64,000 bases of DNA from Saccharopolyspora soli (lineage in GTDB: Bacteria; Actinomycetota; Actinomycetes; Mycobacteriales; Pseudonocardiaceae), in NCBI RefSeq assembly GCF_022678645.1, contig NZ_JALBWV010000001.1, forward strand, positions 62,001-126,000, written 5' to 3'. Under the pieces are notes generated by a model, which was given only the letters and a program-made list of their open reading frames with translations, ran no database searches and had not been told where the DNA came from. Positions 16,727 to 35,235 of the stretch are shown piece by piece (the stretch's first letter is position 1; each line of letters opens with the position of its first letter). Both the position numbers and the translations under genes were made by a program.

Positions 16727-18304
16727 ATGTCAGACAATCTCGGTCCCCGCGAGTCAACCCCGTCCCGCCGCCAGGTCCTGTTGGCCGGTACGGCCGCCAT
16801 CGGCGCGGCCGCCCTGAGCACCACCGGCCTCGGCACTGCCGCGAACGCCGCTGGGGCGGGCGTTGCGGCCGTCCGCGCGCCGTTCACGCTCGGCGTGGCT
16901 TCCGGCGACCCCGTGCCGGACGGTGTGGTGTTGTGGACCCGCTTGGCCCCGAACCCGCTCGCCGAAGACGGTCTCGGCGGTATGCCCGACCAGATCGTGC
17001 CGGTGCAGTGGCAGGTCGCGGCGGACGAGAAGTTCCGCGACATCGTGGCCGCCGGGGCCGAGCTCGCCCTGCCGGAATCGGCGCACTCGGTGCACGTCGA
17101 GGTGTCCGGGCTGCGTCCCGGTGCCGAGTACTTCTACCGCTTCCGCGCCGGTGCCGAGCTCAGCCCGGTCGGCCGCACGAAGACCGCGCCGCGTTCGGGA
17201 GCGCGCCTCGACCGGTTCGCGTTCGCCTTCGCCAGCTGCCAGAACTACCCGGACGGCTACTACAACGCCTACGCCCACATGGCCGAGGAAGACCTCGACC
17301 TGGTCGCCTTCCTCGGCGACTACATCTACGAGGGCAACGCCGCGGGCAGCATTGGGCGCCCGCACGTGCCCGCGCGGGAGATCTTCACCCTCGCCGACTA
17401 CCGCACCCGGCTCGGCCAGTACAAGTCCGACCCGAACCTGCAGGCCGCGCACGCGGCGTTCCCGTGGGCGGTCGTCTTCGACGACCACGAGGTGGAGAAC
17501 AACTGGGCCGGGGACATCTCGCAGGTCGACACCGAGCCCGACCAGGACCCGGCGGTCTTCCGCGAGCGCCGCGCCCAAGCGTTCCAGGCGTACTACGAGC
17601 ACATGCCGCTGCGCCGCGCCCAGCGTCCGACGGGGCCGGACATCCGCATCAACCGCCGGTTGACCTTCGGCGACCTGGTGGACGTCCACCTGCTGGACAC
17701 CCGCCAGTTCCGCAGCGACCAGGTCCCGGCCGACCAGCGCGCGGACCCCTCGCGCACGATCCTGGGCACCGACCAGCGGGAATGGCTGCTGCGCGGCTTG
17801 GCTGGCCCGACCGCGCGCTGGAACGTCCTGGCGCAACAGGTGTTCTTCTCGCAGCGCGACTTCACCGCGGGTGACGCCGATTCCTTCAGCGACGACGCCT
17901 GGGACAACTACCTGGTGGAACGCAACCTGGTGCGCGACCGGTTGGCCGAGGCGTCCAACCCGGTGGTGATCACCGGTGACGTGCACGCCAACTACGTCGC
18001 GGACGTGAAGGCCGACTTCGACGACCCGGCCTCGGCGACGGTGGCCAGCGAGCTGGTCGGCACCTCCATCACCTCGGGTGGCAACGGGATCGACCAGAAC
18101 CCCGGCGATCTGGTCCAACTCCAGGAGAACCCGCACATCAAGTTCATCAACCGCAACCGCGGTTACGTCCGCAACGTCATCACACCGACGGAGTGGACGG
18201 CGGACTACCGGATCGTGGATTACGTGAACACCGCTGGTGCCCCGATCCGCGACCGAGCCCGCTTCGTGATCGAAAACGGCCGCCCAGGCGCCGTCCAAGT
18301 CTGA
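16727..18304 (+). CDS. phoD: PhoD-family alkaline phosphatase/phosphodiesterase
   Basis: A 525-residue enzyme is exported by Tat: SRRQVLLAG near 14-22 is a twin-arginine signal ending near ANA. An N-terminal fibronectin-like PhoD_N domain (about 48-145) precedes the metallophosphatase domain (about 155-500). Metal-site motifs are present: FASCQNY, GDYIYEG, FDDHEVENNW and ITGDVHANY. PhoD enzymes use Fe/Ca to release phosphate from mono- and diesters outside the cell. The gene stands alone, with a palindrome upstream and a strong terminator downstream. Confidence 0.93.
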   Translation: MSDNLGPRESTPSRRQVLLAGTAAIGAAALSTTGLGTAANAAGAGVAAVRAPFTLGVASGDPVPDGVVLWTRLAPNPLAEDGLGGMPDQIVPVQWQVAADEKFRDIVAAGAELALPESAHSVHVEVSGLRPGAEYFYRFRAGAELSPVGRTKTAPRSGARLDRFAFAFASCQNYPDGYYNAYAHMAEEDLDLVAFLGDYIYEGNAAGSIGRPHVPAREIFTLADYRTRLGQYKSDPNLQAAHAAFPWAVVFDDHEVENNWAGDISQVDTEPDQDPAVFRERRAQAFQAYYEHMPLRRAQRPTGPDIRINRRLTFGDLVDVHLLDTRQFRSDQVPADQRADPSRTILGTDQREWLLRGLAGPTARWNVLAQQVFFSQRDFTAGDADSFSDDAWDNYLVERNLVRDRLAEASNPVVITGDVHANYVADVKADFDDPASATVASELVGTSITSGGNGIDQNPGDLVQLQENPHIKFINRNRGYVRNVITPTEWTADYRIVDYVNTAGAPIRDRARFVIENGRPGAVQV

Positions 18305-18349: not shown

Positions 18350-18513
18350 ACCGCACGGGAACGCGGCTCAACAGCCAGCGGGCGGCAGGACCAGGGAGGC
18401 CGCCATTCGGAGGGCCGCCACCTGCGTTCCATCGCCCGCGTTCGGACGGTTGTCCGGCGCCAGCGGGATGAGCATCCTTGGCATACCGAGATCATCCCGC
18501 GACAGGGGCGCGT

Positions 18514-19197
18514 ATGGGCGATACCCACGCCGAAACTCACCGCGGCACGTTCTGGGCGATGCTGGATCCGGCGGAGCGGGTGCTGATGCGCCAGGCCGGG
18601 ACGGTTCGCCGGTTCGAGCCCGGTGAATCCCTGTGCAGGCAGGGGGATTCGTCCCGGCACGTCTACGTCCTGCTGCTGGGCAGCATCGAGATCGTCACCG
18701 ACGTCGCCACCGGCTACGAGGGCGTGCTCGCGGTTCGCGGACCAGGTGACATCGTGGGCGAGTTCGCCGCGCTGGACGGCAAACCGCGCTCCGCGACGAT
18801 GCGGGCGCTCGACCTCGTCGAGGCCATCGTGGTTCCCGTCGAACGGTTCAACGCGCTGTGCCAGTCCAGATCTCGGCTCGCGTGGACGGTTCTGCGGGTG
18901 ATCGTGGAGCGATTGCGGGAGATCAGCCGTCAACGGGCGGAACACGGCGGTCGGTTGGTCGAACAACGCGTGGCGGCCCTGCTGATCGAGCTCGCGTCGC
19001 GGTACGGCGTGACGGCCGGGGACGGCGTCACGATCTCGATACCGCTCACGCAGAAGAGCATGGCCGGTCTGGTCGCGGCGTCCCGGGAGTCCGTGGTGCG
19101 CGTGCTGGGTGGGTTGCGGCGTCAGCGTTTGATCAAGACCGGCCGCAGGCGGGTGACAATCCTCCGCCTGGAGGAATTGAAACGGCTCGTTTCCTGA
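18514..19197 (+). CDS. Crp/Fnr-family transcription regulator
   Basis: A 227-residue protein has a cyclic-nucleotide-binding-type sensor domain (about 25-140, with VLAVRGPGDIVGEFAALDGKPRSATM), a dimerisation helix, and a winged helix-turn-helix (about 150-220) with TQKSMAGLVAASRESVVRVLGGLRR split over the recognition helix. No cysteine set for an Fe-S cluster is seen, so it is more Crp-like than Fnr-like. The ATG at 18514 is preferred to an upstream in-frame start because GGGG precedes it and the family domain begins here. Its target is unknown; it may control the small membrane protein that follows. Confidence 0.88.
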   Translation: MGDTHAETHRGTFWAMLDPAERVLMRQAGTVRRFEPGESLCRQGDSSRHVYVLLLGSIEIVTDVATGYEGVLAVRGPGDIVGEFAALDGKPRSATMRALDLVEAIVVPVERFNALCQSRSRLAWTVLRVIVERLREISRQRAEHGGRLVEQRVAALLIELASRYGVTAGDGVTISIPLTQKSMAGLVAASRESVVRVLGGLRRQRLIKTGRRRVTILRLEELKRLVS

Positions 19198-19297
19198 TCC
19201 TCGAACGGCTTTCGGCCAATGAGTCAGGTGACGCAGTAGGCGGCAGCGGTTTGCCGTACATGTCTGTCATGGCCTTTCGAGGAGGAGGTTGACGGAC

Positions 19298-19570
19298 ATG
19301 GCAAGAAGTAGTTCGCAGCACACCAGCTCGGATGCTCCAGGGACGACGTCGATGCCCGCTATGCCGAAAGAGGAGACCACCGGACGCCATCGTCGTCGGC
19401 GGAGCCCGTCGACGCTGCTGTGGAACGCGTTGTTCACCGTCGTGCAGCTGTGGGGGCTGATCATCGTCCTGGTGCACATCCAACCCGACGGCATGGCCAA
19501 AGCGGCGCTGGCCGCGGTGATGGCTGCCGCGGTGATCGCGGTGATCTCGGCATGGCAGGAGGCGTCGTAG
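19298..19570 (+). CDS. Small two-helix membrane protein
   Basis: A 90-residue protein has a polar, Arg-rich N-terminal half (GRHRRRRSPS) and two closely spaced membrane helices (about 42-62 and 67-86). A very strong ribosome binding site, GAGGAGGAGG, lies nine bases before the ATG at 19298. I do not recognise the family. It lies 100 bases after the Crp-like regulator, and the following 285 bases up to 19855 hold no gene I can support. Confidence 0.75.
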   Translation: MARSSSQHTSSDAPGTTSMPAMPKEETTGRHRRRRSPSTLLWNALFTVVQLWGLIIVLVHIQPDGMAKAALAAVMAAAVIAVISAWQEAS

Positions 19571-19855: not shown

Positions 19856-21637
19856 ATGCCGCAGTACTCAGAGGCGGAATTTCGGAGCATCGTGCTGGTC
19901 GATGTCGCGAGTTTCAGCGATGCGAGCCGGAAGTTCCTCGGTCAGCTCGCCGTGCATCGCGGTCTTGAGGAGTTGTTGGAGCGGGCCTTCGACGAGGCGG
20001 ACGTCGGATGGCACTCGTGCGAGGTGGAGGATCGCGGCGACGGGAAGATAATCCTGGTGCCCCCGAACATCCCCAGGATCAGGCTGGCCGATCAGTTGTG
20101 GAACAGGCTGCTCGCCGGGCTGCGCCGACACAACGCGGTGCATTCCGACGCGGCGGTCATGCAGCTCAGGGTCGCGTTGCACGCCGGTGATGTCCGGCAA
20201 AGTCCCAATGGAAAGGTCAGCCCGGCAATCAATTTCGCGGCCCGCATTCTCGACGCGCGGGACGCGAAGAAGTCGTTGGCGCGGACGGGCAGCGCGCTGG
20301 CCCTGATCGCGTCGGAGGATTTCTTCCGGAACGTGATCGAGCACGACCAGGCGGCCGAGCCCGATGTGTTCCGGCAGATTTCCGTGGTGGTCAAGGAGAC
20401 CAGCACCGTCGCGTGGTTGCGGCTGTCCGGCTCCACGGGTGAGACGACGACTTCCGAACCGGTGTCGGTGGAACGGGACGTACCGCACCGCGTCCTCGAC
20501 CTCCTGCCAGACGACGACCTGAGCCAGTTGCGGGAATCGTTGAGCGAGGTCGTGGTCCCGCAGCTGCCGACGCTGCTGCGCCGAGCTGCGGGACCGGGCG
20601 TGCCGCCCGCGCCGCCCGGTGCGAGCGCATGGGAGGTCCTGGCGTATTTGGCTGATTTCAACGCGGGTGCCGATGGGTTTCCGCCAGCGCTGTCATTCGT
20701 CGAACTCCTGGCGCGGCAGGTCCCCGACAGCTCGCTGCGCGCTCGCCTTCGGGAATGGAACGACACACAGGCTCAGCGTCTTCAGCTCAGCTCCGAACTC
20801 GCGAAGCTTCGGGAAACCAACACCGAGCCGATCACGGCTGATGCCCGGCTGCATCTGATGATCGTCGTGCAGCACGATGGGATCGATCCGGACCGTTTCG
20901 TGGTTTCGCATTGGCGGCAGGATGATCCCGACGAATGGCCGCCCGCGCGTGGCGACATTCGTACGGTCCGGGGCGACGAGATCGAACGGCGGGTCGATGA
21001 GTTGGTGCTCGACGCCGAGCGGGCGTGGCGAGGCCACGCGGGCACCGTGGCTTTAGAGGTCGTCCTGCCCCGAGCTCTGCTGAGCCTTCCCGTCCACCTG
21101 TGGCGCAAGGAGCACGAGTCGGGAGTACCGCGCCCGTTGTGCCTGGACTACCCGGTCGTGGTGCGTTCGCTGGAACGGATGAGGTCCGACTACTGGCACC
21201 GGGTGTGGAAACGCCGTTGGCAGACGATGCGGGAAGACCCGTGGGAGGCGGAAGTCCACTTCGCCCGTCCGGCTGGCCCGGACAGCCCGCACGCTATCGA
21301 TGCCGTGCTGGAGAGGGAACAGCGGTGTGCGGCGATCGTGCTCACCGAAGCCCCGCAGCCAGAACCCCGCAGCGGTGACCAGTTGATGTCCGCTCTGCGG
21401 TCCGGTTTGCCAGCAGTGCTGTGGCATCGTCGCGACGATTCGGAAAGCTTGCGGGAGATCGTCGAATGGTTGGCCAAAGAGGGCGGCTTGGGTGATCTGC
21501 CGCCCCGAACCCATACCGTCCGGCGGGATGCGCACCTCGATTCGCCTACTCCGTTCGATGTCAAGGCGGTGCAGGAAATGGTTGTGCTGTGGGATGATCC
21601 TGGGCGTTTGTTGACCCCCGACGAGCTCGCGGGCTAG
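19856..21637 (+). CDS. Cyclase-like domain + VMAP-C conflict-system protein
   Basis: A 593-residue protein starts at ATG 19856 after GGGAGGGGG. Residues 8-190 resemble a class III nucleotide cyclase: IVLVDVASF, a GDG turn in EDRGDGKIIL and SPAINFAARI supply the usual Asp, Asp and Asn/Arg positions, but the usual substrate lysine is not obvious. Residues 215-295 form a small helical domain in the place of an effector-associated domain. Residues 330-593 match VMAP-C (HLMIVVQHDG, EVVLPRALLSLPVHLW, LCLDYPVVVRSLERM). VMAP proteins occur with MoxR ATPases and vWA proteins in proposed actinobacterial conflict systems, and exactly such genes follow here. The effector output is not visible in this chain. 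Confidence 0.8.
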   Translation: MPQYSEAEFRSIVLVDVASFSDASRKFLGQLAVHRGLEELLERAFDEADVGWHSCEVEDRGDGKIILVPPNIPRIRLADQLWNRLLAGLRRHNAVHSDAAVMQLRVALHAGDVRQSPNGKVSPAINFAARILDARDAKKSLARTGSALALIASEDFFRNVIEHDQAAEPDVFRQISVVVKETSTVAWLRLSGSTGETTTSEPVSVERDVPHRVLDLLPDDDLSQLRESLSEVVVPQLPTLLRRAAGPGVPPAPPGASAWEVLAYLADFNAGADGFPPALSFVELLARQVPDSSLRARLREWNDTQAQRLQLSSELAKLRETNTEPITADARLHLMIVVQHDGIDPDRFVVSHWRQDDPDEWPPARGDIRTVRGDEIERRVDELVLDAERAWRGHAGTVALEVVLPRALLSLPVHLWRKEHESGVPRPLCLDYPVVVRSLERMRSDYWHRVWKRRWQTMREDPWEAEVHFARPAGPDSPHAIDAVLEREQRCAAIVLTEAPQPEPRSGDQLMSALRSGLPAVLWHRRDDSESLREIVEWLAKEGGLGDLPPRTHTVRRDAHLDSPTPFDVKAVQEMVVLWDDPGRLLTPDELAG

Positions 21638-21654
21638 GCAGAGGGACGCCTCGA

Positions 21655-22788
21655 ATGGGCATCGACGAGCACCCCGACGGCGGCGCGGCACAGCGGCAGT
21701 CGCCGAGTTTCGGCACGCCTGGTTGGTGGATCTACCGCGGTACTGGCCGCCCGTTGCGCGACATCCGGCTGACCGACGTCCTCCCGGCTCCGCCGCCCTG
21801 GCGGGATTTCGGCGGCGGCCCGATCGCCGTGCGCGATGTGCCTCCGCCGGACGACGGTGAAGCTCGGCGTCGGCTCGGTGCGGAGTCGCACCTGTCGGAA
21901 CGCAATGTCGACCCGCACGAGGTGGACATGGTGAACGCGGCGCTGTACTTGCGCCGCCCGTTGCTGGTCACCGGTCGGCCCGGCACCGGGAAGTCGAGCC
22001 TGGCGTACCGCATCGCCCGGGAATTGGGACTGGGCCGGGTGCTGAGGTGGCCGATCACGAGCCGCACCACGTTGAATTCGGGTCTGTACGCCTACGACGC
22101 CATAGGACGCGCGCAGGCCGCCGCGACGCGGCAGGCGTTGGCGCGGTGGGGCGTGGACGCGGACACCTCGTCGCTGAGCGCGGATCGCGCGATGACCCTC
22201 GCGGAACCGCCAGTTGGCGAGTTCCTGCGACTCGGACCGTTGGGGACGGCGTTCCTGCCCGCCGAGCTTCCTCGCGTCCTGCTGATCGACGAGCTGGACA
22301 AGAGCGAGGTGGACCTGCCGAACGACCTGCTGAGCATCTTCGAGGACGGCCAGTTCACCATCTCGGAGCTGGAGCGGATGCGGGACCGATCGCCCGAGGT
22401 GACCGTGCTGGCCGACGACCCAGGTACGACGGCCACTGTCGTCGACGGCCGGGTGAGCTGCCGTGCCTTTCCGATGGTCGTGATCACCAGCAACGGGGAG
22501 CGGGAATTCCCGGAGGCGTTCCTGCGCCGCTGCCTGCGGCTGACGATCAAGGAGCCCACCATCGAGCAACTCGCCGCGATGGTGGCCGCACACCTCGCCG
22601 ATTCCGACGACGAGCAGCGGCAACGAATGATCCAGGAATTCCTCGACCGCGCGGCGGATGGAGGTGGCCTGCCAGCCGACAAGCTGCTCGACGCGGTGTA
22701 CCTGGCGACCTCGGGCGCCTACCACGACGACGATTCGTGGTCGCGGTTGTTGGACGCACTGTGGCGGCAACTGACCTCGGTAACGTGA
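21655..22788 (+). CDS. MoxR-family AAA+ ATPase
   Basis: A 377-residue ATPase has Walker A GRPGTGKSS (107-115), Walker B VLLIDELDKSE (208-218), sensor-1 VVITSNGERE and the helical lid. It starts 17 bases after the VMAP-C gene with GAGGGA as ribosome binding site. MoxR ATPases usually act as chaperones that remodel vWA-domain partners, and the next gene encodes one. One base separates its stop codon from the GTG of that gene, so the two are translationally coupled. Confidence 0.9.
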   Translation: MGIDEHPDGGAAQRQSPSFGTPGWWIYRGTGRPLRDIRLTDVLPAPPPWRDFGGGPIAVRDVPPPDDGEARRRLGAESHLSERNVDPHEVDMVNAALYLRRPLLVTGRPGTGKSSLAYRIARELGLGRVLRWPITSRTTLNSGLYAYDAIGRAQAAATRQALARWGVDADTSSLSADRAMTLAEPPVGEFLRLGPLGTAFLPAELPRVLLIDELDKSEVDLPNDLLSIFEDGQFTISELERMRDRSPEVTVLADDPGTTATVVDGRVSCRAFPMVVITSNGEREFPEAFLRRCLRLTIKEPTIEQLAAMVAAHLADSDDEQRQRMIQEFLDRAADGGGLPADKLLDAVYLATSGAYHDDDSWSRLLDALWRQLTSVT

Positions 22789-22789
22789 C

Positions 22790-25700
22790 GTGCGCGCCGA
22801 AGGTGACTCGGAGTCGGCAGGTCCCGCCCGGTTGGCGGGACGGACGCCAGACGGCTCCGCAGCCACCCAGCGCCTCAGAACCGATGATCTCGCCTGGTCC
22901 GATCTGGCGGATGCCGTCTGGTTGACCGCCGCCACCCAGTACGCCTGGCGATGGCAGCGAACCAGCGACCGCGCGCAACCCAACGGGGAGAAACCGCACC
23001 CAGCTGCGCAATACGCAGAGGGTACGGACCACACGGCGGAATCGGGCCGAGACGACCGAGCATCGACCGAACCCGAACAGCGGTCCATCCAACGCGAGGA
23101 CGCGGGCTACAGTTCTGAACAGCACACCACCGCAGAGCATGACGACGACATCCACGTCGAGCCGACGGCCAGTCGGTCGGCCGAGATGCCGGAACCCGTT
23201 GGCGGAGCCCCTGTTCGGCTCGACAACACCGCACGACCTGCGTTCCGCCCACGGGCCGCCGGGCCGAACATCGCCCGCGCATTGCGGCCGTTCAAACGCC
23301 AGGTTCGTTCCCCGCACCCGGAGGATGCGCTTCTGGACGAGGAGGCGACCGCCGAGCGGGCCGTTGAAGATGGGCTGTGGTTGCCTATGACCCAGCCGAA
23401 CATGACGCGCTGGCTGGATTTGACGCTGGTCGTGGACACCAACCCGTCTATGGCGCTGTGGCGCTCGACGATCAATGCTGTCGTCACGTCGCTGGAACGG
23501 CTCGGTGCGTTCCGCTCGATCCAGCAACGCTCGCTGGACACCCGTGAAACACCGCTGTTGCGCGGCGCTACCACGGAAACGCCCACCCGCAGCCCTGCGG
23601 AACTGATCGATTCATCCGGTCGGCGGGTCGTTCTCATCCTCACCGACGGCGTCGGCGAGTGCTGGCGGCAGGGTCTGATCTCGCCATTGCTCGCTCAGTG
23701 GGGCACATCGATGTCGGTAGCGGTCGCGCATCTGCTACCGCAGCGGCTCTGGCGTCGCGGTGGCTTGCGCCCGCAGCGTGCGAGAGTGACCGCGCCACGC
23801 TCGGTGGCACCGAATCGACAGTGGACGGTCGAGCTACCGGACGCCTGGCTGGATCCCGACCCGGTGCCAGCCAACGCGGTCGCCGTGCCGGTCCTGGAGC
23901 TGGAAACCCGCTGGCTGGCGCGCTGGGCGCAGTTGGTCGCGGGGTACCGGACGCGATCCGCCGACGCCGTGGTTACATTCGCCCATGATCATTTGCCTGA
24001 ACCGGCCGAGGACGAGACTTCCGCCCGTGACGATGACGACGTTATCGGGTCCCCTCAGCGGCGCGTCATGAAATTCCGCAGCTCGGCATCGCCGCCGGCG
24101 TTCCGCCTCGCGACGTTGCTGGCCGCAGTGCCGGTCAGCGTGCCGGTCGCTCGGCTGATCCAGGCCGAACTGGTTCCGGATTCCGGTCCTGCTCACGTGG
24201 CCGAGGTGTTCACCAGCGGCTTGCTGCGCGTGGACAACTCCACCGACGTGGCAGGTTGGGAAACGGCTCGCTTCGATTTCGACCAGCCGATCCGAGAAGT
24301 CCTGCTCAGCGGCGCCCGCCGCTCGGAGACTGCGCACGTCGTGCGTGTCGTCGCCGATGCTCTTGCCGACCGCGTCGCTGGCGTCAGCCAGCTCCGCGAC
24401 GCCCTGGACGCTCCTGATGCGACGCCAATTCCTCGTCTATCACAAGAGACGGAGATTGAGCGGGCACTGATGCGCGCTCTTTCCGGGCCTTATCTCGTTC
24501 GCGCGGGCAGGTTGGACGAGCTGCTCCACCATAGCTCTCGACCGGAAGATACACCTTCGGTCGAAAATTCGGCCCCTTCATCGACCGATGCTTTTGACAG
24601 CAACATCCAAACGGTGAGTGAGAAAATGTCACTTTCGAGCACCGAATCAACGAACGACCCCCAAACATCGATCCCGGCCCCGGACGATTGGGGGGTCCGG
24701 TCGGCGACTGAGACGGGCGAGGGTGCGACCGACGCGGAGGATCCGGCCAGTCCACCGTCCACTGTGGCGGCCCGAATTCTCCGTGAACGGCGGCCGGAGG
24801 ACGTCCCGCCGATCTGGGGCGACGTGCCGCCGCGCAATCCGATCTTCACGGGCCGCGAAGATCCGCTTGCGGAGTTGGACGGTCGATTGACGGCTGGCGG
24901 CACCACCGCCATCCTGCCTGCGGCGCTGCACGGCATGGGCGGCATCGGCAAGACCCAGATCGCGGTCGAGTACATATATCGCCACCTGCAGGACTACGAC
25001 CTGGTGTGGTGGGTTCAGGCCGGGCAGTCCTCCCAGATCCGCGCCGGGCTCACCGAGCTGGCCCAGGCACTGCGCCTGCCCGGAAGCTACGAAGCCCACA
25101 CGGCCGTGCCCGCGGTTCGGGAGGCGCTCCGGCGCGGTCATCCCATTCGAAGATGGCTGTTGGTGTTCGACGCTGCCGAAAGTCCGGAGGCGGTACGCCC
25201 CTTCTTCCCGTCCAACGGGCCGGGCGAAATCCTCATCACATCCCGGAATCCCGACTGGGCCGAAGTAGCTCGCCCTTTGGAGGTCACACTGTTCGAGAGG
25301 GCGGAGAGCAAGGAGTTGTTGCACAGCCGCGGCCCGGAGATCACTGATGAGGAGGCCGACGCGCTGGCCGACAAGTTGGGAGACTTGCCGCTGGCCATAG
25401 CCCAGGCCGCCGCGTGGCGAGCGGAGACCGGCATGCCGGTCAGCGAATACTTGCGCGTGTTCGACGAGAAGGTCGCCGAGATCCTCGACGCATCGGCAAC
25501 CAACGACTACGAGGTGCCGCTCGCAGCTGCTTGGAACGTCTCGTTCGACCAGTTGGAGTCTCGAAACCCCGCCGCTCACCAACTCCTGCAGGTGTGCGCG
25601 TTCTTCTCGCCGGAGCCGATCTCCCGCAGCTTGTTCACCGGCGTCCGTGGCACGGTGATCTCGCCGGAGCTGGATGCCGCGTTGCGCGATCCGATCCGGC

Positions 25701-27286
25701 TGGGCCGGGCTATCCGCGACATCAACAGGTATGGCCTGGCGAAGATCGACCATCGAAATGACACCCTGCAGTTGCACCGGCTGGTGCAACTGGTCCTCCG
25801 CGACCGGATGCCACCACAGCGCCGTGCGAACATGTGCCACGGTGCCCATCTGCTGCTGGCCAACCTCAATCCGAACGACCCGGTTACCCCGTCGCAATGG
25901 CCGCGATACCAGGCCATCCTGCCGCATGCGTACGCGTCGGACGTGTTGGAATGCGAGGACCCCTGGGTGCGCCAGTTGGTCATCGACTTGATGGAGTACC
26001 TGTACTTCTGGGGTGACCACGAGGAGTGCGTGGCGCTGGGCCAGCGAGCCCTCGACGTATGGTCGACGACGTTGGACGAGACAGACCCCCAGTTGCTCCA
26101 CGTGGCTGGCAAGCTGGGTGTCTACCTGTGCAAGCTGGGCCGATACGCCGAAGCTGCGGAGCTCAACCAGCGAACGCTTGCCCTGCGCCAGCAGACCTCC
26201 GGCGAGAACAGCGAGGAAACCCTGGACGCGGAACTCACCGTCGCGTTTGACTTGAAGGCCAAGGGTGAATTCCTGTCGGCCAGGGACATGAATGAGCAAA
26301 CCTACCGCAAGGCGAAGGGACTGTTCGGCGCCGACGATCCGGTTTCCCTCGCCGCCGCACACGACCTGGCCGTGACCCTGCGGCTGGCCGGGGACTTCCA
26401 GCGGGCACGGGAGTTGGACGAAGACACCTACCGGCGGCAGGTCGAGGTACGTGGCTTTGACAGCTCGCAAGCCATCTCCACGTTCGCCGGGCTCATCCTG
26501 GACCGTCTTGAGCTGGGCGACTACGCCTGGGCCCACGGCGAAGCGGAACGCCTCGCCGACCGCTCCCGGCAGCTCTTGGGCGAGGACAACGTGAGGACCC
26601 TGCTACGACAGCACCAGTTGTCCATCGCGGCGCGCAAGAACGGGGAGCACCAGAGCGCATTGGAGCTGTCCAGTCAGGCATTGGAGCGGTTCCGCTTCCG
26701 CTACGGTGCCGATCATCCGAGCACCCTCAGTTGCGCCGTATCGCACTCCATGGATCTCCGGCAAACCGGTGAGCTGCAGGCCGCTCGTTCGCTCGGCGAA
26801 GACATCTTCGATCAGTTCCGCCGCAATCTCGGCGAGGACCACCCGCACACCCTGTCCGCGGCCGTTGACCTTGCGGTCACGCTCCGGTTGCTCGGCGAAG
26901 CCGACAGCGCGCGGCAGCTCGACGAACGGTCGGCCCAGCGGTTCCGCGCGGTGTTCGGCCCGGACCAAGCGCACGCCTTGGTGGCCGCGATCAACCTAGC
27001 CAGTGATGTGGCCGTGCTCGGGGAGGTCGAGACGGCCCTGACGCTGGGTACGGAGGCAACGGAACGTGCTGAACGAGTGTTCGGTATCGAGCACCCCACC
27101 ACCCTAGCGGCGACCCACAATCTCGTTCTCGATCTCCGCGCCCTGGGCCGCACCGAGGAGGCGGAGTCCAAACATGCCGACGTGCTGATCCGCTATCGCC
27201 GAGCGCTGGGTGAAGCGCACCCCGGCGTGATAAGTGCTGCTAGAGGCGTTCGCGCCAATTGCGACATCGATCCCCCGCCGCTGTGA
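22790..27286 (+). CDS. vWA (SAV_2336-type) + NB-ARC/STAND NTPase + TPR protein (FxsT-like)
   Basis: This is a very large protein of 1498 residues starting at GTG. After a disordered N-terminal part, residues about 200-400 form a vWA-like domain with MIDAS-type motifs in altered form: D216-T-N-P-S in place of DxSxS, and LTDG near 284-287. Residues about 690-1060 are a STAND NTPase of NB-ARC type: GREDPLAEL, P-loop GMGGIGKT (715-722), LLVFDAAES, ITSRNPDW and GDLPLAIAQAAAW. Residues about 1075-1480 are tandem tetratricopeptide repeats. This order is that of tetratricopeptide proteins named for FxSxx-COOH peptide systems. It probably senses a signal through the repeats, oligomerises on ATP binding and works with the MoxR protein. 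It is convergent to the HEXXH gene, 19 bases apart. Confidence 0.85.
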   Translation: MRAEGDSESAGPARLAGRTPDGSAATQRLRTDDLAWSDLADAVWLTAATQYAWRWQRTSDRAQPNGEKPHPAAQYAEGTDHTAESGRDDRASTEPEQRSIQREDAGYSSEQHTTAEHDDDIHVEPTASRSAEMPEPVGGAPVRLDNTARPAFRPRAAGPNIARALRPFKRQVRSPHPEDALLDEEATAERAVEDGLWLPMTQPNMTRWLDLTLVVDTNPSMALWRSTINAVVTSLERLGAFRSIQQRSLDTRETPLLRGATTETPTRSPAELIDSSGRRVVLILTDGVGECWRQGLISPLLAQWGTSMSVAVAHLLPQRLWRRGGLRPQRARVTAPRSVAPNRQWTVELPDAWLDPDPVPANAVAVPVLELETRWLARWAQLVAGYRTRSADAVVTFAHDHLPEPAEDETSARDDDDVIGSPQRRVMKFRSSASPPAFRLATLLAAVPVSVPVARLIQAELVPDSGPAHVAEVFTSGLLRVDNSTDVAGWETARFDFDQPIREVLLSGARRSETAHVVRVVADALADRVAGVSQLRDALDAPDATPIPRLSQETEIERALMRALSGPYLVRAGRLDELLHHSSRPEDTPSVENSAPSSTDAFDSNIQTVSEKMSLSSTESTNDPQTSIPAPDDWGVRSATETGEGATDAEDPASPPSTVAARILRERRPEDVPPIWGDVPPRNPIFTGREDPLAELDGRLTAGGTTAILPAALHGMGGIGKTQIAVEYIYRHLQDYDLVWWVQAGQSSQIRAGLTELAQALRLPGSYEAHTAVPAVREALRRGHPIRRWLLVFDAAESPEAVRPFFPSNGPGEILITSRNPDWAEVARPLEVTLFERAESKELLHSRGPEITDEEADALADKLGDLPLAIAQAAAWRAETGMPVSEYLRVFDEKVAEILDASATNDYEVPLAAAWNVSFDQLESRNPAAHQLLQVCAFFSPEPISRSLFTGVRGTVISPELDAALRDPIRLGRAIRDINRYGLAKIDHRNDTLQLHRLVQLVLRDRMPPQRRANMCHGAHLLLANLNPNDPVTPSQWPRYQAILPHAYASDVLECEDPWVRQLVIDLMEYLYFWGDHEECVALGQRALDVWSTTLDETDPQLLHVAGKLGVYLCKLGRYAEAAELNQRTLALRQQTSGENSEETLDAELTVAFDLKAKGEFLSARDMNEQTYRKAKGLFGADDPVSLAAAHDLAVTLRLAGDFQRARELDEDTYRRQVEVRGFDSSQAISTFAGLILDRLELGDYAWAHGEAERLADRSRQLLGEDNVRTLLRQHQLSIAARKNGEHQSALELSSQALERFRFRYGADHPSTLSCAVSHSMDLRQTGELQAARSLGEDIFDQFRRNLGEDHPHTLSAAVDLAVTLRLLGEADSARQLDERSAQRFRAVFGPDQAHALVAAINLASDVAVLGEVETALTLGTEATERAERVFGIEHPTTLAATHNLVLDLRALGRTEEAESKHADVLIRYRRALGEAHPGVISAARGVRANCDIDPPPL

Positions 27287-27305
27287 TCTCGCCAGCTGGC
27301 CCGGC

Positions 27306-29168
27306 TCAGGTGAGGAAACGTCCGATCCAGTCGGCGAGCTCGTCCGGCGCAGTCACGCTTGCCGCGCCAGTTCGAACTCTCCGGTGCACTGCGCGGACCA
27401 GTTCGGGACAGGTCAGCAACGCCCGAGCGGCTGGTCGCGCACCCAACCCGGACAGGGCTAGGCCCAGCCCGACCCAGGAGGCAGGGCGGTCCGGGTCCGC
27501 GGCCAGTTCCGCCTGGTAGCCGACTACGGCATCGGTGAGGCGACCGCTGGCGTAAGCGAAATCCGCTGGCGTCGCATCGGGAACGGTCGACCACACTTCA
27601 GACGGCATGTGTTGGCCGTGGGAATCGGCTGGCGCGCTGGGCGCCGATTCGCCGAGGCCGAGGCGGACCAGGTCGGTCCGTGCCCGCGACCAGGGACCAT
27701 CTGGTACGGGGGTGGGCGTCCGGTCGCTGACCACGCGGATCCCGGCCAGGCGTCGCCGCCCCGCCAGCCAAGCGTCCGCCACCGCCGCGACGGTTTCCGG
27801 GATCGGTCGCACATACCGAATTCGCCACCCGGCGTAGTGATCCGAGGCCAAGGCTGCGGCCATGTCGGCCAGGTCGGCGGGAATCGGTTCGTCCTGCCAT
27901 GGGCCCAACCGCTCGGCGATGCCGTCGACGAACCGCCGCCCCGCCTGAGTCAGAACCGGATCGTCCCGCAGAACCTGGAGTGCGCCCCAGGTCACAGCAC
28001 GCCAGTAGGCGAACTCGAATACGGCACGGCGATCTGAGAATCCCGGATCGGCGTGCGCCAACGCCCGCCAGAACATGGTGACGCCGAAAAACGCGTAGGT
28101 GCCTTGGAGCATTCCGGCCATTGGGCGCGGATCGTCCCGCCACGGCGCGTAGAACCGCTCCCGCGGATCCTCCTCCCGCAACCTGGTCAAGTGGAGCAGG
28201 CCCCCCAGCCGGATGTGCTGGAACTCGTGGACGAGCATGGCGGCCAACGCGACTGCGTCGGCTGGTCGGCTGACGATGGCGCTGCCGAAGGCTTCTCCGG
28301 TGGAAGCACTCGGCTCCCGGAACGGAATCGCCGGGCGTGGCACCAGTGAGTTCAGACCAGCGCTGAGGGCATCGGCGATTTCGGGGAGGTGCTGGACGAT
28401 CAGGCGCCAGGCGTCCTTGAGCAGTCCTCGCCACGTGTCCATCTCGGTGGTGCTGATCCGCTGCGGCAACACCGGCTCGTAAAGCCCGCGGTAGGGATCT
28501 ATATCGTCTAGGCGCACCGCGAGCGCCTGGCCATGCGCTCGAACCGAGATGTGCCGAATACCCCACCAGCCTGGGGCGTCCATGGAGTGATCGGGCGGTA
28601 TGCGCACACACGCCGTCCCACTGCGGATTTCCAGCCGTCCGCTCTCGCCGTGCACGTCGGCCACCGAAAATCGTGCCTGCGCGGGCAGACGCGCTAGACC
28701 GATGGTCGGCAGAATCGCCCCGCCGTGCCACACCGGTACCGACGTCTCGAACCGAAGCCCGGCACGGATCGCCGCCGCTGCGGCAAGCGCATGTATATGT
28801 CCGATGTGTACCCACAGTGGACAGACCCCGGTGGTTTGGTGGTGGAACAAGCGCGTGGTGTAACCGGCCCAACTTCCCGTGTAGGGATGCGCGAGCATCA
28901 GATCAAGCACTCTAGGCGCTTTCGCTTGGACTCGCGTCAGCAATTCCCAGGACGATTCCGGGGAAGGTAGCGGTCCCCGCAGGTCTGGAACCTTGGCCAC
29001 CTCGTCCACCAGTGCTCGCAGCAGGAGCAATCGCCGACTGCGCTCCGCGCGACGCAACCGGCGAACGGTGCGGGCACCACCCGAACCGCGAGCGAGGTCA
29101 TCGAAGTCGGCCCACGACAGGCGGTGGAGAGCGACATCTTCCGGGACACTATCTCGGCCGACGGGCAC
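27306..29168 (-). CDS. HEXXH-motif putative peptide-modification protein
   Basis: A 620-residue protein starts at GTG with GAGGAG five bases before it. It matches the HEXXH domain family found in FxSxx-COOH peptide loci, either alone or fused to the radical SAM protein FxsB. The family signature is H314-E-F-Q-H318 (MLVHEFQHIRLGGLLHL), followed by an all-helical C-terminal region with a TPR-like end (about 540-600). The HEXXH motif would bind zinc, but the reaction catalysed by this family is not established. The gene follows the short peptide gene at 29235-29429 on the same strand with 66 bases between them, the arrangement expected for a modifying enzyme and its substrate. Confidence 0.82.
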   Translation of the reverse strand: MPVGRDSVPEDVALHRLSWADFDDLARGSGGARTVRRLRRAERSRRLLLLRALVDEVAKVPDLRGPLPSPESSWELLTRVQAKAPRVLDLMLAHPYTGSWAGYTTRLFHHQTTGVCPLWVHIGHIHALAAAAAIRAGLRFETSVPVWHGGAILPTIGLARLPAQARFSVADVHGESGRLEIRSGTACVRIPPDHSMDAPGWWGIRHISVRAHGQALAVRLDDIDPYRGLYEPVLPQRISTTEMDTWRGLLKDAWRLIVQHLPEIADALSAGLNSLVPRPAIPFREPSASTGEAFGSAIVSRPADAVALAAMLVHEFQHIRLGGLLHLTRLREEDPRERFYAPWRDDPRPMAGMLQGTYAFFGVTMFWRALAHADPGFSDRRAVFEFAYWRAVTWGALQVLRDDPVLTQAGRRFVDGIAERLGPWQDEPIPADLADMAAALASDHYAGWRIRYVRPIPETVAAVADAWLAGRRRLAGIRVVSDRTPTPVPDGPWSRARTDLVRLGLGESAPSAPADSHGQHMPSEVWSTVPDATPADFAYASGRLTDAVVGYQAELAADPDRPASWVGLGLALSGLGARPAARALLTCPELVRAVHRRVRTGAASVTAPDELADWIGRFLT

Positions 29169-29234
29169 GGCTGCTCCTCGACGGTTGGCCCGGACGTCCG
29201 CCGACTGAAACTAGCGCAGCGGGAAGCAGCGGAG

Positions 29235-29429
29235 TCAATCGGCCCTCTCTTTGCCGTCGTTGGTGCCCGATTCCGTCACCCCAATGTCCGCTGCCCGTTC
29301 CACCACGTGTCGTAATGATCGGTACAGCGCCGCATGGTTCAGTGTTCTCAGCTCTGAAAGTGGGACCATTTCGAGGTCGATTAGTTCCGACTCGACGCCC
29401 GGTTCGGCGTCAACCGAGAAGAAGGTCAT
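29235..29429 (-). CDS. FxSxx-COOH-like precursor peptide with a variant C-terminus
   Basis: A 64-residue peptide starts at ATG 29429, eight bases after GAGGGAG. Its middle, ELIDLEMVPLSELRTLNHAA, matches the leader pattern LIDLxxVPLxxL...AL of FxsA-type peptides, whose name comes from a C-terminal F-x-S-x-x. Here the chain ends VTESGTNDGKERAD with no such tail and no other aromatic residue in the last twenty. It therefore looks like a member that kept the recognition leader but has a different core. The HEXXH gene follows in the same direction. Alternatively the core has been lost by mutation. Confidence 0.68.
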   Translation of the reverse strand: MTFFSVDAEPGVESELIDLEMVPLSELRTLNHAALYRSLRHVVERAADIGVTESGTNDGKERAD

Positions 29430-29637: not shown

Positions 29638-30951
29638 TCAGGCCAGGGTTTCGCGGTGGGTTTCTCTGGCTGTTAGGACCGCTGTTAGGGAGATCGCTGA
29701 GATGGCTGCGTAGTAGGCGACCACCGACCAGACCGTTCCCGTCGCCGCTAGTAGGGATGCCGCTATCAGGGGGAAGAAGCCGCCGATCACGCCTCCGAGT
29801 TGGCGGCTTACGCCCAGGCCGGAGAATCTTCTCGTCGCGCTGCGGAAGAGTTCGGCGTAGAAGCTGCCTTCCGTGGCGAACAGCATCGTTTGGATGAACG
29901 CTGGTGGGATCGCGATCGCCAGGATCACTAGCGCGTTGTTCCTGGTCGCCAGCAGCGGGAAGAAGACGAACGCCACGTAGAGCGCTCCGATGATCAACGA
30001 GGTCGCCATCATGATGCGGCGGCCGACGAAATCCGAAATCCGGCCGAACAGCGGGTTCGCCACGATGCCGACGACGTTTCCGATGAGCACGCCGATGAGC
30101 ATCACGGAGTTCTCGATGTGCAGTTCCTGGGCTCCGTAGACCAGCACGTAGACCGTGAAGATCTGCAGCATGCTCGTTTCGGTGATCACGCAGAGGAAGA
30201 TGGTGATGCACGCCTTCGGCTCCTCGCGCAACGCCGCGATCAGCGGCAGTTTGCGCGGGGTTTGCGCCGCTGCCTGCTTGAACACCGGCGATTCCTCGAT
30301 CTTCGCGCGGACGTACACGCCGACCAGGACCAGCACGGCGCTGAGCAGGAACGGGATTCGCCATCCCCAGGAGATCCGGTCGTCGGCTGGCATCGCCGCC
30401 ACCAGACCGGCACCCAACGAGGCCAGCACCGAACCCGCAGCCGCGCCGATCTGGATGACGCCAGCGTATCCGCCGCGCTTGCCCTCCGGCGCGCTCTCGG
30501 TTGCCAGGATGACCGCGCCCACGGTCTCACCGCCGAGCGCGATGCCCTGGATGAACCGCAGCAGCACGAGCAGGACCGGGGCGACGACGCCGATTGCGGC
30601 ATAGGTGGGCAACAGGCCGATGGCCGTGGTCGAGGCGCCCATGACGATCAGCGTGATGAACATGACCGGTTTGCGGCCGATGCGGTCGCCGAAATGGCCG
30701 AACACGATGCCGCCCAGCGGTCGGGCGAGGTATCCGACCGCGAAGGTGCCCAGGACCGCGACCGTGGCCACCAGCGCGTTGGTCTTCGGATAGAACAGCT
30801 CCTCGAAGACCACCGGTGCGATCAGGCCGAAGAGCAGGAAGTCGAAGTACTCGATGGTGGTGCCGATCGTGCCGGACACCAGGATCCTGCGCCGCTGGGT
30901 GCGGATTCGCCGATCCTCCCGATCGTGTTCTGCCACGCTGCCGACGGCCAT
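29638..30951 (-). CDS. MFS transporter, metabolite:H+ symporter (MHS) type
   Basis: A 437-residue, 12-helix transporter has MHS-family marks: TTIEYFDFLLFG in helix 1, the GRPLGG/FGHFGDRIGRKP loop, LLRFIQGIALGGE and a repeated GRISDFVGRRIM in the second half. Relatives move shikimate, 2-oxoglutarate or aromatic acids with protons. The ATG at 30951 is chosen from AAGGAGG seven bases upstream; the frame extends further but with non-coding composition. Its place at the edge of the methoxyaromatic gene cluster suggests uptake of an aromatic acid. Confidence 0.88.
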   Translation of the reverse strand: MAVGSVAEHDREDRRIRTQRRRILVSGTIGTTIEYFDFLLFGLIAPVVFEELFYPKTNALVATVAVLGTFAVGYLARPLGGIVFGHFGDRIGRKPVMFITLIVMGASTTAIGLLPTYAAIGVVAPVLLVLLRFIQGIALGGETVGAVILATESAPEGKRGGYAGVIQIGAAAGSVLASLGAGLVAAMPADDRISWGWRIPFLLSAVLVLVGVYVRAKIEESPVFKQAAAQTPRKLPLIAALREEPKACITIFLCVITETSMLQIFTVYVLVYGAQELHIENSVMLIGVLIGNVVGIVANPLFGRISDFVGRRIMMATSLIIGALYVAFVFFPLLATRNNALVILAIAIPPAFIQTMLFATEGSFYAELFRSATRRFSGLGVSRQLGGVIGGFFPLIAASLLAATGTVWSVVAYYAAISAISLTAVLTARETHRETLA

Positions 30952-31079
30952 TTCCAGCCTCCTTCGGGTTGCCTTTGCACGGTGCTGCGACACCGGTTGG
31001 GAAGTTCGATCGAGAGTTGCCGGAGCACGCGCCGCAGCGCGGGTTCGCCTGATGCCGGAAGGTGCCGCGCGACCTGCGG

Positions 31080-32198
31080 TCAGTCCTCGTGGACGATGAC
31101 CCCGCGGATGATCTTGCCGTCGTCCAGGTCCTGGTAACCCTGGTTGATCTCGTCGAGGCCGTACCGCTGCGTGATCAGCTCGTCGAGCTTGAGTCGGCCG
31201 ATCCGGTACAGGTCGAGCAGGCGCGGGATGTCGTAGAGCGGATTGCACATCCCGAACACGTGGCCTTGGACCCGCCGCTGGTAGCCGACCAGCAAGCCGT
31301 TGGCCGCGAGCTGGATCTGGGTGTCCGTGCTGCGGCCCACCGAGGTGATGGTGACCTGACCGCCCTTGCCGACGATCGAGGTGGCCTGCGACACGACGTC
31401 CGCGGTCAGCACACCCACGGTGCAGATCGCGTGGTCCGCCAGCTGTCCGCGGGTCAGCTCGACTACCGCCTCCTGCGCCTCGGCGGCGTTGTCGAAGACG
31501 TGCGTGGCGCCGAAGTCGAGCGCCTTCTGCCGTTTGAACGACACGGGATCAACCACCACGATGTAGCGGGCACCCGCGTACCGCGCGCCCTGCACCGCGT
31601 TCGAACCCACCCCGCCGGCACCGAAGATGACCACAGTGTCGCCGGTGCGGACACCGGCGGCGTAGACGGACGAGCCCCATCCGGTGGGGACACCGCAACC
31701 GACGAGCGCGGCGACCTCGAAGGGGATGTCGGCGTCGATCTTCACGCAGGACGCTTGGGAAACGACCGCGTGCCGCGAGAACGTGCCCAGCATGCAGAAC
31801 CCGCCGAGGTCCTCGCCAGCGTCGTCGTGGAAGCGGAACGTGCCGTCGGAGAGCATCCCGGTGGCCATCTGGGCGCCCTGGTCGCAGAGGTTCTGGCGGC
31901 CCGTCGAGCAGTAGCGGCAGGTACCGCAGGCCGGGATGAAGGAGCAGACCACGTGGTCGCCGCGCTCGACGCGGGTGACGCCCGGCCCCACGTCCTCGAC
32001 GACACCGGCGCCCTCGTGCCCGCCCACGATCGGCAGTCGGCAGCGGCTGTCGCCGGTTCGCAGGTGCTCGTCGGAGTGGCACATGCCGGAGGCTGCGAAC
32101 TTGATCCGCACCTCACCCTCGCGCGGCGCGTCCAGCTCCAGATCCGCGAGCTCCCAGGGCTCGCCGGACTCGCGGATGATGGCTGCTCTGGTCCTCAT
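31080..32198 (-). CDS. NDMA-dependent zinc alcohol dehydrogenase
   Basis: A 372-residue medium-chain dehydrogenase belongs to the actinobacterial NDMA-dependent subgroup with tightly bound cofactor. Visible parts are the catalytic zinc ligands in SGMCHSDEH and GGHEGAGVV, the structural zinc cysteines (CGTCRYCSTGRQNLC), the second catalytic cysteine in ALVGCGVPTG and the Rossmann motif GAGGVG. It oxidises alcohols or aldehydes with an unknown electron acceptor in the cell. GGAAGGG precedes the ATG. The palindromic operator candidate at 32272-32285 lies about 75 bases upstream of the start, which ties it to the aromatic catabolic genes. Confidence 0.9.
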   Translation of the reverse strand: MRTRAAIIRESGEPWELADLELDAPREGEVRIKFAASGMCHSDEHLRTGDSRCRLPIVGGHEGAGVVEDVGPGVTRVERGDHVVCSFIPACGTCRYCSTGRQNLCDQGAQMATGMLSDGTFRFHDDAGEDLGGFCMLGTFSRHAVVSQASCVKIDADIPFEVAALVGCGVPTGWGSSVYAAGVRTGDTVVIFGAGGVGSNAVQGARYAGARYIVVVDPVSFKRQKALDFGATHVFDNAAEAQEAVVELTRGQLADHAICTVGVLTADVVSQATSIVGKGGQVTITSVGRSTDTQIQLAANGLLVGYQRRVQGHVFGMCNPLYDIPRLLDLYRIGRLKLDELITQRYGLDEINQGYQDLDDGKIIRGVIVHED

Positions 32199-32271
32199 GG
32201 CCCTTCCCGTCTTCGTTGACTGGGTGAGTTCCCAAGTGCGGAACGGTACGTAGCTCGTAGCGTCAGTACGA

Positions 32272-32285
32272 GCGACAAATGTCGC
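32272..32285. promoter_or_regulatory. Palindromic operator candidate (GWCATTTGWC) upstream of alcohol dehydrogenase
   Basis: GCGACAAATGTCGC is a perfect palindrome of two six-base arms around AA. Its core GACATTTGTC (32274-32283, minus strand) matches cores at 36832, 37123 and 43956, all in front of genes of the aromatic cluster. Confidence 0.55.
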
Positions 32286-32324
32286 TGCGGAGCCGAGTCA
32301 TGCGTCACTGGTCCCGTGCGGCGG

Positions 32325-33446
32325 TCAGGTCCAGACTTCTTCGGCCACCTCGACCAGGAGGGCGAGCTTGGCCCACTGCTGATCGACCGTGATCTCGTTT
32401 CCGTCCACTGTGGAGGAGAAACCGCATTGGGGGGAGATGCACAGCTGGTCGAGGGGGACGAATTTCGCCGCTTGGTCTATTCGGTGCTTGAGGTCGTCCT
32501 TGCTCTCCAGGACACCCGTCTTCGTTGTCATCAGCCCGAGCACCACCTGTTTTCCGGGTGGCAGGAAGCGCAGTGGCTCGAAGCCCCCGGAACGCTCGTC
32601 GTCGAACTCCAGGAAGAAGCCGTCCACGTCGAGTTCGGTGAACAGCGCTTCGGCGACGTAGTCGTAGCCGCCTTCGGCGACCCACGAGGAGCGGTAGTTG
32701 CCGCGGCACAGGTGGACCGTGACCGCCAGGTCGTCCGGGCGGTCCCGGATGGCTGCGTTGATCTGCCGGATGTTCACCAGGTGTTGGGTTTCCGGGTCGC
32801 CGCCCAGTTCGGCCAACATGGCCCGCTGCTTCGGGTCGTTGAGGTAGGCCAGGCTGGTGTCGTCCAGTTGCAGGTAGCGGCAGCCCAGGTCGTACATGCC
32901 GCGCAGTTCGGCGGCGTACGCGGCGGCGAGGTCGGTGTGGAAGTCGTCGAGCTCCGGGTAGATGGTCTCGTCGATGGCCGATCGGCCGCCCCGGTAGAAC
33001 ACCATGCTGGGGGAGGGGATGGTCTGCTTCGGCTCGGCGGTGGTGACCATCCCGCGCAGCGTGGTGTGGTCCGCGCCGAAGATCGTGTGGTCGAGGTGGA
33101 TTCGCTCGGTCACCCGCAGCGCGTCCGGCGTCCATTCGATGGTGTCGCCGCCCGCGTTCTGGAACCGCACCGAGCGCGTTCCCGCCGTGGTGCCGATGCC
33201 GCCGAGTTGGTGGATGAAGTCCATGTGCCACGTCGTCCTGCGGAACTCGCCGTCGGTCGCCGAGCGCAGCCCAATCTCCTCCTGCTTGCGCACGGCAGCT
33301 CGGATGGCGTCGTCTTCGACGGCGCGGAGCTGTTCGGCGCTGATCTCGCCATTGGCGCGCTGCTGCCGGGCGGCGACGATTTCCGGTGGCCGCAACAGGC
33401 TTCCGACGTGGTCGGCGCGGAACGGCGGCCGGGTGCGGTCGGTCAT
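32325..33446 (-). CDS. MetE C-terminal-type methyltransferase
   Basis: A 373-residue protein has the catalytic barrel of cobalamin-independent methionine synthase but without its N-terminal half. Zinc-site residues are recognisable: VHLCRGN (His and Cys), FFLEFDD (Glu) and ISPQCGFSS (Cys), plus LQLDDTSLAY. Such short forms transfer methyl groups to thiols. In this setting a likely role is to use methyl-tetrahydrofolate formed by the O-demethylases for methionine synthesis or another acceptor. The start follows GGGAGG. The upstream 385 bases contain stacked hairpins. Confidence 0.85.
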   Translation of the reverse strand: MTDRTRPPFRADHVGSLLRPPEIVAARQQRANGEISAEQLRAVEDDAIRAAVRKQEEIGLRSATDGEFRRTTWHMDFIHQLGGIGTTAGTRSVRFQNAGGDTIEWTPDALRVTERIHLDHTIFGADHTTLRGMVTTAEPKQTIPSPSMVFYRGGRSAIDETIYPELDDFHTDLAAAYAAELRGMYDLGCRYLQLDDTSLAYLNDPKQRAMLAELGGDPETQHLVNIRQINAAIRDRPDDLAVTVHLCRGNYRSSWVAEGGYDYVAEALFTELDVDGFFLEFDDERSGGFEPLRFLPPGKQVVLGLMTTKTGVLESKDDLKHRIDQAAKFVPLDQLCISPQCGFSSTVDGNEITVDQQWAKLALLVEVAEEVWT

Positions 33447-33831
33447 GTCGTGTCCTCCCAGATCTCGGTTGGGTATCGGTTGACCACGCGGCGTTTCGCC
33501 TTCGGCAACTGGCTGGTCGGGTCGCAGGAAACTGCCCCTGCCACCTGACCAGCGGTGGGCTGGTCTTCGTGGTAGTCAGTGCACGAAGTTACGCTGGGTT
33601 CCTGTATTTACTTTTGTCTTTGAAGCGGCGCAGCCGCTTAGCCCACCCTTGCATCCGGCACCGCCGCGGGTTCTCAGCGGTGCCATGCGGGGACACCCCG
33701 CACCCTGAGCTATCTCGGGAGGACAGCCTCGACGTGGTGTATTGGACATACATGATGTCGGGGATCCCGGACCGAGAAGACTTCTGAGGTTCCGCTACCT
33801 GCACCGCTACGCAAAATGAGTTCAAAGAATC
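33447..33831. other. Intergenic region with three consecutive hairpins
   Basis: Between the ligM stop and the MetE-like start lie three perfect inverted repeats. They are AAGCGGC/GCCGCTT at 33623-33639, GGCACCGC/GCGGTGCC at 33657-33684 and GCGGGG/CCCCGC at 33687-33701. A weaker CCAGC/GCTGG hairpin lies near 33550-33564. A local AT-rich patch (33598-33622) follows them in the direction of transcription. They could be a terminator for ligM or a leader RNA of the MetE-like gene. I do not recognise a known riboswitch. Confidence 0.5.

Positions 33832-35235
<1,404 letters not shown>

Follow-up and report, generated by a model that had tools for sequence, protein, structure and literature searches.

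The 64,000-nucleotide stretch of Saccharopolyspora soli DNA analysed here (the window; positions 62,001 to 126,000 of contig NZ_JALBWV010000001.1, assembly GCF_022678645.1) derives from a 9.35-Mb assembly, in which its contig is C96 in our numbering. At 19856-29429 it contains a five-gene island that we regard as almost certainly an RxD-type VMAP-ternary system. A VMAP protein, a MoxR ATPase and a vWA/NB-ARC/TPR protein are encoded in one operon on the plus strand, and they converge on a HExxH enzyme and a small peptide encoded on the minus strand (Table 1). The intergenic gaps are 17 nucleotides (nt) between VMAP and MoxR, 1 nt between MoxR and vWA, and 66 nt between the peptide and HExxH genes, and the facing stop codons of the vWA and HExxH genes lie 19 nt apart. 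A first-pass annotation made from the sequence had recognized these five genes as one unit with two convergent halves, which the coordinates bear out; its outline of the island left out a CRP-like regulator and a small open reading frame (ORF) that lie upstream.

VMAP-ternary systems with an associated HExxH-like protein and peptide have already been described (Kaur et al., 2020, eLife; PMC7159879), with peptides of the FxSxx, RxD, acidic and FtsH-associated types. According to these authors, an AP-ATPase/TPR module is fused to the vWA domain in the RxD and acidic types, and some of the systems are associated with a CRP-like factor; the available text mentions radical SAM genes only with the FxSxx and FtsH-associated types. 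The window shares with the RxD type the VMAP-MoxR-vWA order, the fusion of AP-ATPase/TPR to vWA, the HExxH-like protein and a peptide with a C-terminal RxD, and no radical SAM gene adjoins it. The combination of the two halves, which the first-pass annotation had taken to be unusual, is thus a known one. In the published description the HExxH protein was read as a metallopeptidase, whereas by profile and fold it groups here with the alpha-ketoglutarate (aKG)-HExxH oxygenases. New here are this oxygenase identity, a relative of the enzyme that cuts at an ARMD sequence, clade-specific peptide tails, and the apparent GTP-type cyclase of VMAP together with the upstream CRP-like regulator. A literature search, judged mostly by titles and covering few subscription journals, showed among the matches listed no work linking VMAP systems to aKG-HExxH oxygenases.

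Table 1. Features of the VMAP-ternary island and its upstream region (window coordinates)
Feature	Position	Strand	Basis
CRP-like transcription factor (cyclic-nucleotide-binding domain + helix-turn-helix, HTH)	18478..19197	+	PF00027 76.6 bits, PF13545 62.8 bits; upstream of VMAP operon
Small membrane-protein-like ORF, possible part	19289..19570	+	translation; between CRP gene and VMAP
VMAP protein: predicted N-terminal class III nucleotidyl cyclase domain, VMAP-M0, VMAP-C	19856..21637	+	PF19916 102 bits, PF20028 142 bits; start ATG
MoxR-type AAA+ ATPase	21655..22788	+	PF07728 (AAA_5) 29.5 bits; motifs WWIYRG, PPWRDF
vWA co-chaperone (SAV_2336 N-terminal type) + NB-ARC STAND ATPase + TPR, 1498 aa	22790..27286	+	NF041121, NF040586, PF00931, PF13424
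aKG-HExxH-type peptide beta-hydroxylase-like enzyme, 620 aa, HEFQH intact	27306..29168	-	TIGR04267, Foldseek, phmmer
Precursor-like peptide, 64 aa, C-terminal RAD (RxD type)	29235..29429	-	N-terminal part common to relatives

Within the family, 147 of 390 genomes matched the HExxH protein (E 1e-20); across the phylum 3 of 396 did so at 1e-40, the window's own among them, and the best relatives carried the genus name Saccharopolyspora. The comparison set consisted of 81 loci (L numbers below; genomes carry G numbers, the window's own being G000), namely the window and 80 stretches of at most 20 kb, the first 80 of 87 chosen; the set is related and hand-picked, not random, and two of its loci come from elsewhere in the window's genome. 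Two further loci, from a scan of genome contigs with the HExxH protein, were judged to duplicate the genomes of L009 and L027 and were left out of the counts. All five parts were detected by tblastn in 70 of the 81 loci, where in tandem-copy loci the best matches may derive from either copy. The two halves were convergent in 74 loci, on the same strand in 4 and divergent in 3, with a median gap between stops of 6 nt in the 77 loci with opposite strands, and 78/81 loci had, upstream of the HExxH gene, a peptide ORF that was similar in its N-terminal part (none at L047, L076 and L078). The five-gene association far exceeds chance. That two unrelated systems merely happen to be neighbours, as their position on opposite strands might suggest, is refuted by this survey and can practically be dismissed; a lack of co-occurrence of the two halves in other genomes, which the first-pass annotation had named as evidence against its reading, was not seen. 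Several genomes (L041, L043, L045, L048 and others) contain two HExxH genes of this family ~9-10 kb apart, and the window's genome has another VMAP/MoxR/vWA/HExxH set, whose peptide is of the VQxQ type, at C105:89015-108787 (L077).

The same annotation had described the peptide as FxSxx-COOH-like, in a system free of the radical SAM enzyme FxsB. A small peptide ORF is indeed present. It has no FxSxx motif, its score against TIGR04268 (19.5 bits) stays below the cut-off of 28, and it ends in KERAD followed by the stop codon; it is therefore of the RxD type and not an FxSxx-COOH peptide. FxsB was absent from the window by tblastn at 1e-20, in line with the earlier statement that none adjoins the island, and FxsB genes did not prove to be regular neighbours of homologous loci: at the same threshold FxsB-like sequence occurred in 3/81 loci (L072, L076 and L078), none of the RxD type, and no FxSxx-ending peptide was found at these three by a simple pattern. 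At 1e-30 a match was found in 4 of the 35 genomes with an RxD locus (G000, G045, G149 and G251) and in none of the other 31. The sole TIGR04269 match of the window's genome at this threshold lies on another contig, C33, where the FxsB-type radical SAM gene adjoins a HExxH gene (L078). An NCBIfam scan of 16 window ORFs (7 at E 0.01, 9 at 1e-10), which did not use FxsC's own model, gave no FxsC match. The set resembles FxSxx-COOH/FxsB systems in its weakly TIGR04268-like peptide, in a TPR protein that scores above the FxSxx_TPR cut-off and in a related HExxH domain, and differs from them in the lack of the FxSxx motif and of an adjoining FxsB. The first two likenesses would also be expected if an FxSxx-COOH system had lost FxsB and decayed; given HExxH in 81/81 loci, the RxD end in 35 loci, the 31 of 35 RxD genomes with no FxsB match at 1e-30 and the separate FxsB locus retained on C33, we consider such decay very improbable.

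The relatives' peptides share a common first part that is followed by a clade-specific tail. The first part was recovered by a profile search begun with the window peptide, which matched 64 loci and is independent evidence for its conservation; an N-terminal Asp in 67/67 peptides is not, since the search pattern demands Asp and hydrophobic residues. The tails, under labels of our own, were R-x-D/E in 35 of the 81 loci, VQxQ in 14, GGHS-like in 10, VLQNQ in 6, QW in 4, DCSG in 2, RD in 1 and other or none in 9, after L082 (to VQxQ) and L017 (to RD) had been reassigned by hand; L075, labelled GGHS by the script, has a tail that resembles the DCSG pair next to it on the tree. The VQxQ, VLQNQ and GGHS-like tails are additional to the four types that the available text of Kaur et al. 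(2020) lists, and the VQxQ and VLQNQ tails (20/81) contain Gln or Asn. In the R-x-D/E tails, x was Ile in 18, Val in 16 and Ala in 1, and the preceding residues were small, with Gly or Ala at R-2 in 33/35 and Gly at R-3 in 28/35. All 35 of these peptides fall within a single group of 39 rows in the HExxH tree (Shimodaira-Hasegawa-like approximate likelihood-ratio test, SH-aLRT, 92), which is nested in a 44-row group (100), and tail type required 12 changes on this tree against a shuffled mean of 42.6 (4 for the RxD label alone). Over 46 codons, three pairs involving the window differed 17/5/24, 15/8/25 and 18/7/22 times at codon positions 1/2/3, with 19 non-synonymous codons in each pair, and L009 and L011 differed mostly at position 1 (17/4/13); the comparison weakly suggests that the window peptide is coding. 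Upstream of the peptide a TTCACA...CATCAT-like stretch, promoter-like by eye, is present in the window and in L009-L011, and L032 has a second peptide ORF ~2.3 kb upstream.

The HExxH protein scored 175.5 bits against TIGR04267 (cut-off 40), and the HExxH motif was present in 81/81 loci, with PWR-x-D-x-RP found by pattern in 67. Its AlphaFold2 model (predicted local distance difference test, pLDDT, 83.9) matched SjiH (PDB 22ob; Foldseek E 1.2e-20, 31% identity) and ChlH (8s5f), the next matches being insignificant, and phmmer matched the sequence to PDB 22nu at 1.1e-51. It thus has the profile, the HExxH and the fold of the aKG-HExxH peptide beta-hydroxylases, sharing the latter two with ChlBH and SjiH (8s5f, 22nu/22ob); judged by profile and modelled fold it is an aKG-type oxygenase and not evidently a protease. 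Kaur et al. (2020) proposed instead a metallopeptidase whose product serves STAND systems as a peptide toxin or signal. HExxH is also the zincin motif, and PflC, a member of the same family, hydrolyses its usual site when the substrate is truncated and lacks the N-terminal part (PMC12636437). Against simple zinc-dependent hydrolysis with release of a short C-terminal peptide stand the TIGR04267 score and the significant solved-structure matches, which were solely SjiH and the aKG-dependent ChlH; the characterized members named in PMC12636437 and PMC13060819 are oxygenases. We consider the peptidase unlikely, and the enzyme probably acts as an oxygenase in vivo. The suggestion that it is probably the only modifier of the peptide is supported.

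PflC and PosC hydroxylate Gln residues and cut oxidatively before a C-terminal ARMD; cleavage is favoured when Ala or Gly occupies the cut site, and hydroxylation when the residue there is larger (PMC12636437). The enzyme PesO hydroxylates a Pro that precedes R(V/T)DN (PMC13060819). With their C-terminal R-x-D after small residues, the tails described here suggestively resemble the QQQQ-ARMD substrate of PflC/PosC, an analogy between enzymes of one family. The setting is different: PflC and PosC come from Pseudomonas clusters that also feature an MNIO-nitroreductase and a leader of the NHLP type, for which the available text of PMC12636437 names no STAND or VMAP genes.

On the VMAP-MoxR-vWA side, the N-terminal motifs WxhapG and PsWRxa, which mark the MoxR of VMAP-ternary systems, were found in the window MoxR protein (Table 1) and, by pattern, both in 53 of the 73 loci with a MoxR match, one in 5 and neither in 15. 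The vWA/NB-ARC/TPR protein scored 423 bits against NF041121 (SAV_2336_NTERM) and 878 bits against NF040586 (FxSxx_TPR; cut-off 300), and has a P-loop GMGGIGKT and a DTNPS resembling a metal-ion-dependent adhesion site (MIDAS). The two metal-binding Asp residues expected of vWA in a VMAP-ternary system, those of DTNPS and LTDG, are present in the window, and each in 33/34 aligned RxD loci; a further motif named for these systems is [D/E]xxx[D/E]xxxa, in the N-terminal extension of vWA. The MIDAS Ser was found in 31/34 RxD loci vs 16/28 loci of three other tail groups (P 0.0026, ignoring the tree); these counts come from alignment columns over the 62 loci and replaced a whole-protein regular expression that was too strict (32/81).

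The VMAP-C domain scored well above its cut-off of 27 (Table 1), as expected of a VMAP-ternary system. At the N-terminus of VMAP the predicted fold and two Asp residues that we take to be metal-binding indicate a class III nucleotidyl cyclase domain, which took up all fold matches of the VMAP model. Residues D16, D62, G119 and R130 are present in 61/61 loci with a cyclase match, and E58 and G119 of the window protein are GTP-type residues on the basis given in PMC4215837. A CRP-like homologue (68-77% identity) lies on the same strand upstream of VMAP in L009-L011, where a similar ORF end to that at 19289-19570 was also seen by eye; that ORF had no NCBIfam match at 1e-10. Across the set, CRP and cyclase were associated (25/60 vs 1/15 loci, P 0.014, with the 6/81 loci without a VMAP-C match dropped). 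At L057, L058, L062-L064, L067, L068, L073 and L079 it is the peptide/HExxH side, and not VMAP-C, that is preceded by the cyclase-like match. A cyclase paired with an effector that binds cyclic nucleotide monophosphates and is fused to a TIR or membrane part defines Pycsar; the nucleotide-binding protein of the window carries an HTH, its PADLOC matches cover the first ~180 residues, and the locus was not assigned to Pycsar.

The cyclase domain and CRP-like factor, side by side in the window, would also suit a developmental or stress switch, not an immune one, in which both act with the peptide to steer morphology or metabolism in a filamentous actinomycete. HExxH relatives are widespread in the family, as noted above, and 4 of 9 flanking ORFs look metabolic by NCBIfam at 1e-10 (PhoD, alcohol dehydrogenase, methionine synthase-like and O-demethylase; the other 5 had no match). 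Fusion to an NB-ARC STAND module, a patchy distribution within the genus (8 of 22 genomes match, the window's own included and several weakly) and tandem copies with diverging tails, as in conflict genes, argue against it, and we hold such a switch to be the less probable role, if a more serious contender than the peptidase. As for the neighbours themselves, likely aromatic-compound genes lie at 29638-35232 beside the island (an MFS transporter, an NDMA-dependent alcohol dehydrogenase, a methionine synthase-like protein and a vanillate/3-O-methylgallate O-demethylase with 907 bits, cut-off 580), and a PhoD-like alkaline phosphatase at 16727-18304, upstream of the CRP gene, scored 606 bits, below the equivalog cut-off of 1000.

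We propose that the modified peptide licenses or triggers a STAND complex gated by MoxR and vWA, while a cyclase product is read by the CRP-like factor, and give this combined mechanism a probability of about 0.5. MoxR and the vWA domain would form an ATP-driven switch on a complex with VMAP, with the NB-ARC/TPR part fused to vWA as a STAND-type effector or receptor. The HExxH enzyme, as an Fe/aKG oxygenase, would bind the common N-terminal part of the 64-aa peptide and oxidize the tail either immediately ahead of the C-terminal RxD or inside it; if PflC/PosC are a guide, this may be an oxidative backbone cut that leaves an amide end. The peptide, modified or unmodified, would then determine which state the vWA/STAND complex adopts. 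The cyclase domain of VMAP would make a cyclic nucleotide, with GTP a likelier substrate than ATP, and the adjacent CRP-like factor would read it and control expression. Here the substrate, the reaction, the contact between peptide and receptor, the nucleotide, sensing or guarding by the STAND protein and a role in defence are what we infer.

Several observations weigh against this mechanism. The window peptide itself carries Lys, and not Gly or Ala, at R-2. Asn126 of VMAP, which we take to be a catalytic position of the cyclase, is Asn in the window and kept in 27/61 loci with a cyclase match. The CRP-cyclase association was not supported by independent pairs on the tree (median sign-test p 1), and a CRP site was not found among gapped palindromes in the upstream regions, the best occurring unconvincingly in 7/26 CRP loci vs 1/55 others. 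PADLOC gave no match at 0.01 for the VMAP, vWA and HExxH proteins. The R, M and D of ARMD are individually dispensable for PosC, which no single change stopped (PMC12636437), and a common RxD is therefore no proof of a common reaction; RxD may alternatively be conserved because vWA or TPR binds it.

One form of such binding would make the C-terminal RxD an RGD-like ligand for the MIDAS metal site of vWA, which the HExxH enzyme removes or masks in a manner dependent on O2, iron and aKG, with the alternative tails as orthogonal keys for co-resident systems. We regard this as a long shot, slightly less likely than the peptidase. The enrichment of the MIDAS Ser in RxD loci supports it weakly, and the window's genome does combine RxD and VQxQ systems with an FxsB locus. 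If it were true, the oxidation state of a small peptide would arm or disarm a bacterial NB-ARC receptor. For the proposed mechanism, the oxygenase finding for the HExxH family, together with ARMD cutting, turns the peptidase prediction of Kaur et al. (2020) into a specific question, namely whether the enzyme oxidizes the tail before RxD, or cuts it oxidatively there, and whether this switches the receptor. If so, oxygenase-modified peptides would be tied to bacterial NLR-like proteins.

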